64,000 bases of DNA. It comes from an uncultured Prochlorococcus sp. GTDB taxonomy: Bacteria > Cyanobacteriota > Cyanobacteriia > PCC-6307 > Cyanobiaceae. The DNA is taken from contig CACMTJ010000005.1 of the NCBI GenBank assembly GCA_902616595.1, forward strand, positions 29,398 to 93,397. The letters run 5' to 3'. Every line of letters begins with the position of its first letter. Positions within the stretch are counted from its first letter, which is position 1. Below the pieces are notes generated by a model. That model was given only the letters and a program-made list of their open reading frames with translations, was not told the origin of the DNA and searched no databases. Below, piece by piece: positions 5,268-43,498 of the stretch. A program made the position numbers and the translations under genes.

Positions 5268-5374
5268 TAGAACCAACCTGGAATGATCTGGCCTGTTGTG
5301 ACATATGCACCAACGGCTGCAACGAAACCTAACATTGCTGCCCAACCATTAAAACGTTCTGCTTCTGGAGTCAT
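5267..5374 (-). CDS. hli: High-light-inducible protein, first of an overlapping pair
   Basis: Only 35 residues from ATG at 5374. It has the minimal Hli form: AERFNGWAAMLGFVAAVGAY, then TTGQIIPGWF. The usual R of N-G-R is W here, while N, A and M are kept. This small form with the GQIIPGWF end resembles the multicopy, phage-type hli genes of Prochlorococcus. The downstream hli overlaps its stop codon. Confidence 0.9.
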   Translation of the reverse strand: MTPEAERFNGWAAMLGFVAAVGAYVTTGQIIPGWF

Positions 5375-38497: not shown

Positions 38498-38568
38498 TAT
38501 ACTTAAAACTTTTATAATTAAAGATAAATTCAAAATTTATTTTACTTTTGTTTTATAAGCACAAAACT

Positions 38569-40098
38569 ATGAATAATAAGAAATTTGGCAAATCAAATAA
38601 AATGCAAGTACAAAAATTACCAACTGGAATAGAAGGCTTTGATGACGTTTGCAGGGGTGGGTTACCTACAGCTCGAAGTACACTTGTTAGCGGTACGTCA
38701 GGAACTGGTAAAACTGTTTTTTCACTGCAATATTTACATCATGGAATTTGTAATTTTGATGAGCCTGGAATCTTTGTAACTTTTGAGGAATCACCTTTAG
38801 ATATTATTAGAAATGCCGCGAGTTTTGGTTGGGATTTACAAGAATTAATTGATCAAAATAAACTTTTTATCTTGGATGCTTCTCCTGACCCTGATGGTCA
38901 GGATGTTGCAGGTAACTTTGACTTGTCTGGTCTTATTGAGAGAATTAGTTATGCAATTAGAAAATATAAAGCTAAAAGAGTTGCAATAGATTCAATAACT
39001 GCGGTTTTTCAACAGTATGATGCTATTTACGTTGTCAGAAGAGAAATATTTAGACTGATAGCGAGATTAAAAGAAATTGGCGTTACAACTGTTATGACTA
39101 CAGAAAGGGTTGATGATTACGGACCAATTGCTAGATATGGAGTAGAAGAATTTGTATCTGATAATGTTGTCTTATTAAGAAATGTTCTTGAGTCAGAAAA
39201 GAGAAGAAGAACTCTAGAAGTTTTGAAGTTAAGAGGTACTGTACATATGAAAGGCGAATATCCATTCACTATGGGAATGGATGGAATAAGTGTATTTGCC
39301 CTAGGGGCAATGAGATTAACGCAGAGATCCTCAAATATTAGGATAAGCTCTGGAGTTAAAGATCTTGATGATATGTGTGGTGGAGGATATTTTCAAGATT
39401 CTATTATTCTCGCCACTGGAGCTACTGGTACGGGTAAAACAATGCTCGTATCAAAATTTGTTGAAGATGCTTATAACAATAATGAAAGAGCAATACTTTT
39501 CGCATATGAAGAATCTAGGGCTCAATTGCTTAGGAATGCGACTAGCTGGGGAATAGATTTTGAAAAAATGGAAAGTGATGGGTTATTGAAAATTATTTGT
39601 GCATATCCTGAATCAACTGGTTTAGAAGATCACTTACAAATTATAAAAACGCAAATTAATCAATTTAAACCAAAAAGAATGGCAATTGATTCTCTTTCTG
39701 CATTAGCCAGAGGTGTAAGTTTGAATGCATTTAGACAATTTGTAATTGCTGTTACTGGTTATACAAAACAAGAGGAGATAGCGGGCTTCTTTACTAATAC
39801 TGCAGAAGAATTTATGGGGAGTCATTCTATAACTGATTCTCATATCTCAACAATTACAGATACTATATTATTGCTTCAATATGTAGAAATAAAAGGTGAG
39901 ATGGCAAGAGCTTTAAATGTTTTTAAAATGCGGGGGTCATGGCACGATAAACGAATAAGAGAATTTATTATCACAAATAGTGGACCAGAAATAAAAGACT
40001 CTTTTTCTAATTTTGAGCAAATATTTAGTGGTGCCCCTCACAGAGTTGTGCCTGATCAAAATGTTCAAAATGTTTTTAAAGGATTAGAGAATAATTAG
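38569..40098 (+). CDS. kaiC: Circadian clock ATPase/kinase KaiC
   Basis: 509 residues from the ATG at 38569 (a TTG at 38548 would add seven). Two RecA-like halves: CI with P-loop GTSGTGKT and catalytic TFEES, CII with GATGTGKT and AYEES. The autophosphorylation pair Ser-Thr in SHISTITDT is at bases 39847-39852. The C-terminus (after SGAPHRVVP) lacks clear A-loop features needed only for KaiA binding. Follows kaiB by 71 bases and is convergent with nblS (four-base overlap). Confidence 0.97.
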   Translation: MNNKKFGKSNKMQVQKLPTGIEGFDDVCRGGLPTARSTLVSGTSGTGKTVFSLQYLHHGICNFDEPGIFVTFEESPLDIIRNAASFGWDLQELIDQNKLFILDASPDPDGQDVAGNFDLSGLIERISYAIRKYKAKRVAIDSITAVFQQYDAIYVVRREIFRLIARLKEIGVTTVMTTERVDDYGPIARYGVEEFVSDNVVLLRNVLESEKRRRTLEVLKLRGTVHMKGEYPFTMGMDGISVFALGAMRLTQRSSNIRISSGVKDLDDMCGGGYFQDSIILATGATGTGKTMLVSKFVEDAYNNNERAILFAYEESRAQLLRNATSWGIDFEKMESDGLLKIICAYPESTGLEDHLQIIKTQINQFKPKRMAIDSLSALARGVSLNAFRQFVIAVTGYTKQEEIAGFFTNTAEEFMGSHSITDSHISTITDTILLLQYVEIKGEMARALNVFKMRGSWHDKRIREFIITNSGPEIKDSFSNFEQIFSGAPHRVVPDQNVQNVFKGLENN

Positions 40099-42162
40099 AT
40101 AATTTCTTTAATTTCAGAACCTGAAAAAGAATCTGAATTATTAATAGCATTTGTCAATAATTCATCTTTATCAGATTGTGCTAAGGCTAAATCGAACCAG
40201 AAAGTTGTTCCTACTCCTAATTCACTAGCCATACGAATCACTCCTCCATGTTTTTCTATTATTCCACGCACTATAGATAAACCTAAACCGGTACCTTGCT
40301 CAGTATGAACAGAATTCTCTACTCTATAAAAACGATCAAATATCTTTTCTTGATCAGCTTGAGATATTCCTGAGCCAGTATCAGCAATCTCAATTCTTAC
40401 TTTTGGGAGTGGTGAAACTAATTCACATTGAGGGGCTGAATTATTTTTTATACTTGGAGGGAAAGCAGGACAGGAATCTGGCCATGTGTAAGCTCTTATA
40501 ATTAGGGAGCTGTTTTTTGGACTAAATTTCAATCCATTACCCAGTAAATTATCAAATACCTGTAAAAGTAAATCAAAATTTCCAAGGATTGGAGGTATAT
40601 TTTCCTCTACATCATGCGATAATGTAACATTTTTTTCTGTAGCATTAAGTCTATAATTTCTAAGAGCCTGCTCTATTGCTGTTTTTATTTCCATTTGCTC
40701 TAGTTGAATGATTTTACCAGACTCCAATCTTGATAAATCTAATACATCATTTACAAGTCTTGTTAACCTATCAGTCTCTGAATTTGCAATGCCCAAAAAT
40801 TCTATTTGTTCTTCATCAGAAAGCTGATCTTTTAAATCGTGTAAAGTTTCTACATAACTTTTGATATTAAAGAGTGGTGTTCTTAATTCGTGAGAAACAT
40901 TACTAATAAATCTATTTTGTGCCGCGTTAAGTTCTACTTCTCTAGTTAAGTCTTGGATTGTTACAGCAATTCCTTTTAATTCAACTTTATTTGTATCTAA
41001 AACGGATTGCAAGACAATTCTTAAGGTTCTTGCTGGTTCTCCTAAACTGAATCTTAAATCGTCCTTTTCCTTTTCTCTTTTTAAAATAGATTCAATATTA
41101 GCGTGTAAGTCGTTAGATAAAATTTCGGGGATTTCATTTAAAAAAATGTTTACCCTCTAAGAATCTTCCTTCCCAACGAAATAGTCTTTTTGCAGTTGGA
41201 TTAGTAAGTACAATCTTGCCTTGTGAGTCTAATAATATTGCACCATCTGCCATAGTAGCAATTAGTAACTGCTGCTTGATTTGTGCCGCTTTTAGTTCTT
41301 CTATATTAGCCTCGTCATAATTTTCTAATTGGGTGGCCATTCGGTTAAATCCATTTAAGAGTTCTCCTAGATCACCTGTCATGGGTAGAGAAATTCTGGA
41401 TTTAAAATTTCCTCTTGAAATTTCTCTAACACCTCTTACTAGCTCTCTGACGGGTCTTGTGATGGTTAGTGCATTAAATACAGCACCAAGTATTACTAAA
41501 ACCCAAATAGAGATAAAAACTGCAATGGTTACTTCTCTAGTCAAGGCAGCACTGGCTAGTGCTTTTTTATTAGGGGTGACTCCTAAAGCTAAAGTTCCAA
41601 GATATTTACCTTTCCACAACATTGGGACAAACACATCTGTTACTTGACCTTGAGGTGTAGCATGCTGCCTAACTAATGGAAATTGTGGTCTCTTCTTTAG
41701 TTCTGAGGGTAGTTTTAATCTTCGAGTGAGCTGAAACTGACTGTCTGAGCTTGTCGGTGTTGCACTGATCGGTATCCCAAGTTGAACAATATCTTCAGCA
41801 TCAGTAAAGAATATATAACGCAAGTTTCGACTTGATCTCCAAAACTTTTCAGCTACATTTGAGATCTCTTTTTTTTGGTTGTTAGCGACTAATTCAGTAA
41901 CATTCCCAGATAACAATAAGCCAAGATCTCGAGCATATCTCGTATCATTCATTCCTGCATCTCTTTGTATGCTATTTAATGCAAAAAAAGTTATTCCCGT
42001 CATTAGGAGACTTACTACAAGAGTTGCTATGGCTAACAACTTTGTTCTTAAACTGAACCCACCCCACCAAGTAAGGAGCCCATTAATCCAATAGTTATTA
42101 TTCATATCTTCATTATTAGTAATATTATATTCTCTATTTTCATGATTATTGGAATCCGCCAT
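40095..42162 (-). CDS. nblS: Sensor histidine kinase NblS/Hik33 (DspA), frame interrupted
   Basis: Two frames together encode the whole kinase. The first (42162-41134) holds a transmembrane helix, an extracytoplasmic sensor region, a second helix, HAMP (TRPVRELVRGVREISRGNFK) and the PAS core ending in GRFLEGKH. The second, open from before 41012 to 40095, holds the HisKA box FISNVSHELRTPL (His acceptor) and the ATPase motifs (DNLLGNGLKFS, IADTGSGIS, GTGLGLSIV). Deleting one A from the run 41140-41146 joins them into about 688 residues, the expected NblS length. NblS controls high-light and nutrient stress genes, including hli, through RpaB-type regulators. Probably a sequence error or a recent mutation. 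Confidence 0.85.
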
Positions 42163-42166
42163 AAGC

Positions 42167-43498
42167 TTAATTCTCCTTAGAAAAGTTTTTTCTGACTTGA
42201 TGGCCTATGTCATTTCTAAAGTAGATACCTTCAAAATGAATTTCTTTTAAATTATTGTATGCTCTTTCAAAAACCATATCGAAATCCTTATCTTGGCAGA
42301 CAATACTTAGGACTCTTCCTCCATCAGTTAATAATTTCCCATTTTCACTTAAAGATGTACCTGAGTCGAAAATTTGACAATCATTTGAGTCAACCTTACC
42401 TATATTTATTGGAAAGCCTGTTTTATATTTGTGGGGATAACCTTTGGAGGTCGCTATTACACAACCACTACATTTATCAGAAGAATTAATTTTTTCATCA
42501 CCAGTTAATTTTCCCATTGAGCATTTTTCTAAAAGAAATACAAAATTTTGATCCATCAAGGGCATTATTGTTTGGCATTCTGGATCACCAAATCTACAAT
42601 TATATTCTATAACTTTAGGCCCAGATTCTGTGATCATTAACCCAAAGTAAATTACGCCTCTATAGTCAATATTTCTTTTATTAAGTTCATTTATTGTAGG
42701 TTCAATTACCTCTTTAATAATTTTATCAAGATAATCTTCTGTTAATAATGGGGCAGGAGAATAAGCCCCCATACCTCCTGTATTTGGCCCTTTGTCTTTT
42801 TCATAAAGTCGTTTGTGATCTTGGGCGGTTGGAAGTAATATATATCTCTTCCCATCGCATAAAGCAAAAACTGAAACTTCTGGCCCTTGAATTTTTTCTT
42901 CTAGAACAACTATATTCCCAGATTTGCCAAATTTACCATTAAAAATTGATTCTGCCGCTTTAAAACATTCATCTTTTGAAATAGGAATAAAAACACCTTT
43001 ACCTGAAGCTAGACCATCAGCTTTTACAACCAGTGGAATTGATGTTGAATTAATGATTTTTTGAGCTTCTTCTAGAGAATTTGCTTTCCAAAATTTTGCA
43101 GTTGGAATATTTGCGTCTTGCATAAATTCCTTAGCCCAAGATTTACTAAATTCTAATTTTGCTCCATCTTTATTAGGACCAAATACTTTGAAATTGTTTT
43201 TACGAAGAAAATCAGCTAATCCATCTGCCAGAGGTATTTCTGGTCCGATTATAATTAAATCTATCTTAAAAAAATCAAGCTTTTCGACTAGTTCATTTCT
43301 ATTTTTTAAATCAATTTTTATTCTTTCACATTTATTTATTCTTTCTGAACCAGCATTACCTGGTATTAAATAAACTTTTTTAACTAATTCATTTTTTTGA
43401 ATAGCCCAAGCCAATGAGTTTTCTCTACCGCCATTTCCAATTATTAAGATATTTTCTAATCGAATAGAGCTCCTAGAACTTGTTGAATGTATTCCCAT
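42167..43498 (-). CDS. purD: Phosphoribosylamine--glycine ligase
   Basis: 443 residues. ATP-grasp enzyme of purine synthesis. ILIIGNGGRENSLAWAI is the PurD start, then PLVVKADGLASGKGVF, the PNTGGMGAYSPAP motif and NCRFGDPECQ. It lies four bases upstream of nblS on the same strand, so the two are probably one operon, and diverges from purC (128 bases). Confidence 0.96.
   Translation of the reverse strand: MGIHSTSSRSSIRLENILIIGNGGRENSLAWAIQKNELVKKVYLIPGNAGSERINKCERIKIDLKNRNELVEKLDFFKIDLIIIGPEIPLADGLADFLRKNNFKVFGPNKDGAKLEFSKSWAKEFMQDANIPTAKFWKANSLEEAQKIINSTSIPLVVKADGLASGKGVFIPISKDECFKAAESIFNGKFGKSGNIVVLEEKIQGPEVSVFALCDGKRYILLPTAQDHKRLYEKDKGPNTGGMGAYSPAPLLTEDYLDKIIKEVIEPTINELNKRNIDYRGVIYFGLMITESGPKVIEYNCRFGDPECQTIMPLMDQNFVFLLEKCSMGKLTGDEKINSSDKCSGCVIATSKGYPHKYKTGFPINIGKVDSNDCQIFDSGTSLSENGKLLTDGGRVLSIVCQDKDFDMVFERAYNNLKEIHFEGIYFRNDIGHQVRKNFSKEN

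Follow-up and report, generated by a model that had tools for sequence, protein, structure and literature searches.

A one-base break in the nblS gene of an uncultured Prochlorococcus draft genome is probably an amplification or assembly indel

The light-stress kinase NblS (Hik33) is essential in S. elongatus PCC 7942, and to that extent the original prediction for this locus, which called NblS/Hik33 essential in well-studied cyanobacteria, stands. As a general claim it is too strong, since insertion mutants of dspA (Hik33) in Synechocystis PCC 6803 have been described that segregated fully, and did so in the absence of glucose (PMC1192802). NblS is reported to phosphorylate RpaB and to control a photosynthesis-wide set of genes (PMC13421787). 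Two kinds of described one-base breaks are relevant to a split copy of such a gene. Frameshifts in poly(A) or poly(T) tracts of Buchnera and Blochmannia are described as rescued by transcription slippage, and runs of nine A or T are given for such slippage in bacteria (PMC5009743). Isolated indels also arise in draft assemblies, and a Prochlorococcus single-cell workflow is reported to leave 3.0 indels and 5.0 mismatches per 100 kb in benchmark cultures (PMC6122165). Here we describe an nblS gene whose frame is broken by one base in the genome of an uncultured Prochlorococcus sp. Positions refer to the window, which is the whole stretch of 64,000 nucleotides that was analysed.

The split nblS gene and its neighbours

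The nblS gene lies between two intact genes (Table 1), which are presumably, to judge by their ORF sequences, kaiC and purD, a purine-synthesis gene. The same arrangement is found in the relatives whose loci were fetched. The stop codons of kaiC and nblS overlap by four bases at 40095-40098, and purD is intact in all 78 matches among the 80 loci and our genome.

Table 1. Features of the nblS region, with positions in the window.
Feature	Position	Strand	Description
kaiC	38548..40098	+	intact, convergent with nblS
nblS, whole	40095-42162	-	split at T7 run of coding strand
nblS, first part	41134..42162	-	342-aa ORF with ATG start; transmembrane/HAMP region and start of PAS; TGA at 41136-41134
T7 run	41140..41146	-	A7 on plus strand; in-frame relatives have one base fewer
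nblS, second part	40095..41132	-	other frame; rest of PAS region, HisKA, HATPase_c
purD	42167..43498	-	intact, directly upstream of nblS, same strand

The predicted split of nblS between two minus-strand frames at this run was confirmed by the two open frames. On the coding strand the extra base reads T, and the "extra A" of the original prediction is the same base read on the plus strand. The stop codon of the first ORF follows directly on the seven T, the first frame reading CAT TTT TTT AAA TGA at the junction. With the reading moved on by one base, 345 open codons follow down to the end of the gene, the kinase domains in them score above cut-off, and no further disabling change was found after the break. 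The expected joined length of about 688 codons agrees with that of the orthologue in the complete relative G041, which has 688.

Pfam matches place HAMP (score 44.6) and the beginning of PAS (24.5; profile positions 5-47 of 113, interrupted by the break) in the first ORF, and HisKA (71.9) and HATPase_c (85.8) in the second frame. HAMP, HisKA, and HATPase_c score above the Pfam cut-offs, and the order HAMP, PAS, HisKA, HATPase_c expected of an NblS is kept across the two pieces, in line with the predicted order of the PAS and HisKA parts. The NCBIfam NblS model NF045911 (621 positions long) is the best match for both pieces, which score 460.1 bits (profile 3-311) and 416.2 bits (358-620; second piece taken from its TTG) when searched apart; its curated cut-off is 1000 bits, which neither piece reaches alone.

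As predicted, the second half by itself could start only from a TTG. This codon, at 41012, is its earliest start codon and opens 305 aa, and the earliest ATG lies at 40694. The 305-aa ORF keeps HisKA and HATPase_c, and could in principle allow a two-protein NblS, with a membrane protein and, from its own start, a soluble kinase. We regard this arrangement as highly improbable: no Shine-Dalgarno sequence is visible in the 20 bases preceding the TTG, the ATG that overlaps the TGA of the first ORF is in the wrong frame for the second half, and nblS is split at this junction in none of the relatives whose frame was listed or aligned.

The T7 run itself is not rare. A second T7 at gene position 174 of nblS is harmless, and 58 intact ORFs of the window carry 105 runs of at least seven on their coding strands (29 of T and 76 of A). 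The unusual part is the broken frame. A second nblS copy was considered and rejected; the genome holds one nblS, and its other kinase-half matches are paralogues with 22-37% identity.

The junction in related genomes

The original prediction proposed comparison with sister strains. A scan of genome records gave 80 loci, most of them with single-cell-style names and almost all from records titled Prochlorococcus or uncultured relatives. All 80 have one base fewer at the junction and match an in-frame pattern. Over the full gene, 79 of the 80 are free of interior stops and frame changes; in ten of these the alignment runs over the natural end of nblS at 682-686 of 688. One locus (L015), on a contig titled as a Bacteriovoracaceae MAG, carries a Prochlorococcus nblS and its neighbours at 95% identity. 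Its nblS matches only from residue 243 and has a stop at 250, and the record looks like misbinning or a chimera.

Wider surveys gave the same result. In 72 genus genomes surveyed with the N half, 59 have an open frame of at least 635 codons around it; two of the remainder are cut by contig ends, two match weakly, and nine have no match. With the C half, an open frame of at least 551 codons runs through the junction in 149 of 149 relatives among those listed, compared to 353 codons in our genome; 221 relatives have a strong C-half match, and the frame was seen in these 149 and in nine re-examined, the remaining 63 standing outside the count. Thus, among the relatives whose frame was listed or aligned, none has nblS split at this junction. 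Likewise, no truncated NblS protein ending like the first ORF was seen among the ten of 120 listed protein-database matches that were read. Of 266 genus genomes, only our own has the T7 allele in its context, in a search through flanking context that a T7 with altered flanking pattern bases would escape. On this comparison of genome sequences, the T7 allele is private, and neither conserved nor programmed.

Loss of nblS elsewhere in the genus was likewise considered and rejected. A strong C-half match is lacking in 44 of the 266 genomes, nearly all of which are incomplete, and some C-half match is present in all 87 genomes of at least 90% completeness. In at least one of these, G197 (97% complete), the match is a paralogue only; kaiC and purD are missing as well, and a separate loss of nblS was rejected in favour of absence of the whole region. 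In another genome, residues 76-215 of the nblS kinase half lie in a 745-codon open frame at a contig end (G172:C50:3-422), perhaps through misassembly.

The same data bear on the proposal that the break is real but read through, by slipping of RNA polymerase on the T7 run or by a ribosomal +1 shift on UUU, so that some full-length kinase is made. To get from the first frame into the second, the RNA must lack one U or the ribosome must shift by +1. Both halves are conserved, the run is a homopolymer, and the sequence is such that the P-site codon UUU could re-pair on UUU after a +1 shift. Nevertheless, we consider read-through very unlikely. The extra base is present in no relative examined and in only one of the 266 genomes, leaving no conserved shift site or frameshift signal (0 of 80 relatives), and the run of seven T falls short of the nine A or T of the bacterial slippage runs (PMC5009743). 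The many runs of at least seven in intact window ORFs imply that runs of this length are not very harmful and argue against frequent slipping at seven. Finally, the first-frame codon after the T run is AAA, followed by TGA. Hence neither transcriptional slippage nor +1 frameshifting, both offered as alternatives in the original prediction, is supported.

A heptamer T TTT TTA is present at window positions 41137-41149 in 65 of the 80 in-frame relatives, and a -1 slip there would end at the TGA of the truncated frame. Programmed -1 frameshifting in the intact relatives was considered and rejected, because the heptamer is absent in 15 of the 80 and common codons would yield it anyway.

Selection after the break and the state of the genome

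The gene may instead be truly truncated in this one cell. A real and recent frameshift would mean that the cell or its lineage has lost NblS, that only the membrane/HAMP part is made, and that RpaB is left without its main kinase; we consider this unlikely. The dispensability of dspA in Synechocystis PCC 6803 speaks for it. RpaB is intact in our genome (contig C6; 356.7 bits against NF045944, cut-off 330), and this retention of the partner speaks against it, as do the fully open second half with its kinase domains above cut-off and the absence of the T7 allele from every other genome of the 266.

We predicted that selection would be relaxed downstream of a break that is real and of some age. 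Before the break, the median pairwise dN/dS between our genome and the relatives is 0.046, and 20 of 80 relatives are as high. After the break it is 0.068, where the maximum among the relatives is 0.065 and none of the 80 is as high. Similarly, the gene has two private amino-acid states before the break and seven after it, compared to a maximum of five after it in the relatives (n=80). These seven private replacements of the C half are accompanied by no private synonymous change, against a total of 86 to 165 in the relatives (Fisher P 0.0007). The excess of private replacements and a dN/dS above those of all 80 relatives are what relaxed selection would give, and count against an error. Nevertheless, a dN/dS of 0.068 is far from 1, and random sequence errors likewise are mostly replacements.

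Other counts limit this interpretation. A count with eight relatives gives 8 to 13 after the break, against 21 to 83 (P 0.07); the ratio before it is raised as well, with 5 to 12 against 11 to 69 (P 0.11), and the N and C halves of our gene do not differ (P 0.42). The intact kaiC of our genome is likewise rich in private replacements (2 to 0 against 30 to 225; P 0.015), so an excess of this kind is not confined to the gene with the break. Over 54 window genes, the private replacement to synonymous ratio is 0.552, within the range of the eight relatives (0.519-0.865), and the transversion share of private changes gives no signal (5 of 7 in our C half, 58 of 89 in the relatives). Taken from sequence comparison, the replacement excess after the break would thus weakly favour a real loss.

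The quality of the genome (G000) bears on both interpretations. It is presumably a single-cell genome; its 39 contigs total 1.29 Mb, with 82% completeness and 0.04% contamination. We compared 1589 G041 ORFs of at least 100 aa with 433 kb of it; 370 of them matched and covered 313 kb, and no real frameshift besides nblS was found in these 313 kb. Two apparent further frameshifts in our genome (L102 and L097) were rejected as matches upstream of true starts. Stretches of seven relatives likewise showed no frameshift over about 278 kb covered. The assembly is therefore not full of indels, which counts against an error in nblS.

In-frame stops were present in 22 matches of our genome, and those checked were antisense ORFs, end effects, or start differences, with one exception. 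The class I fructose-bisphosphate aldolase gene (G000:C1:258-1322; L088:258-1322), 97% identical to that of G041, is interrupted by TGA at codon 55 and by TAG at codon 132. Two in-frame stops imply real gene decay in this genome or more than one error, and the gene may really be broken, decay and error both being possible; the finding supports a real loss of nblS and counts against an error there. However, this aldolase is an accessory gene in the genus. It has no match in 22 of 101 genus genomes, including 6 of 29 at >=90% completeness, and among 78 matching relatives it has internal stops in G036 and G047 and split matches in G069 and G072. The nblS C half, by contrast, is matched in every genome of at least 90% completeness (87 of 87), by a paralogue only in at least one of them, G197. 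Rather less likely still, in our judgement, is the full scenario of a wild Prochlorococcus cell that has lost NblS, a kinase retained across its genus, and kept RpaB intact, with an untranslated kinase half gathering replacements faster than in the 80 relatives. If true, it would mean that the smallest free-living phototroph can do without the photosynthesis-wide NblS-RpaB circuit, and would provide a natural nblS knock-out in the open ocean through which the role of NblS could be tested in the wild.

Origin of the extra base and comparison with described breaks

Lone breaks of the same kind are present in other drafts. Three further genomes have a broken nblS, each at a site other than ours: a private extra C in a C7 run in G146 (L274:2061-2067), a private extra T in a T6 run in G174 (L271:1511), and one missing base outside any run in G278 (L272:432). 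The kaiC gene is frameshifted in 2 of 79 relatives (L069 and L084, at about 5340-5360), whose G9 run stands against G8 or GGGGTGGG in the compared relatives; this ninth G is either an error or a clock-gene polymorphism. The purD gene is broken in 2 of 14 low scorers re-examined out of 266 genomes, lying in two frames in G285 (C21:9727-10936) and in three frames in G133 (C1:1265751-1267053), a one-contig genome. Comparable drafts thus carry comparable lone indels in housekeeping genes, as expected if such a break is an assembly or amplification indel. At the benchmark rate reported in PMC6122165, 0.06 indels would be expected per 2.07-kb gene. The nblS genes of the 80 loci have none, which is below that rate and makes it an upper guide.

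We conclude that the nblS split is probably an isolated one-base error of amplification or assembly, and that NblS is probably intact in the living cell, with its 688 codons. This reading is favoured by the in-frame junction of all 80 relatives together with the single occurrence of the T7 allele among 266 genomes, by the isolated breaks that other drafts show in nblS, kaiC, and purD, by the indel rate reported for the single-cell workflow (PMC6122165), and by the retention of domains in both halves and of an intact RpaB. We infer that the extra T is not in the DNA of the cell itself. It would have entered the T run when the polymerase slipped on this homopolymer in whole-genome amplification, or may have come from a wrong consensus call at thin coverage in this fragmented, incomplete draft. 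Of the alternatives raised in the original prediction, sequencing error is the class best supported here, in the form of an indel of amplification or assembly. The finding is then probably an ordinary one. If the break is an error, which is the likelier case, lone homopolymer frameshifts in single drafts should not be equated with gene loss without reads, a caution that follows from the similar breaks in purD, kaiC, and nblS of other drafts.

Compared to the isolated indels of single-cell and other draft assemblies, the nblS break is alike in being private, of one base, in a homopolymer, and in a fragmented draft, and is probably of the same kind. With the poly(A)/poly(T) frameshifts of Buchnera and Blochmannia described as rescued by slippage (PMC5009743), it shares a one-base break in an A/T run of an AT-rich genome; unlike those cases, its run has seven T and not nine or more, and it occurs in one genome only and is known from DNA alone. 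Finally, both pieces belong with the NblS/Hik33/DspA (Ycf26) family NF045911 and keep its HAMP-PAS-HisKA-HATPase_c order, and the gene differs from that family in a frame broken by one base.
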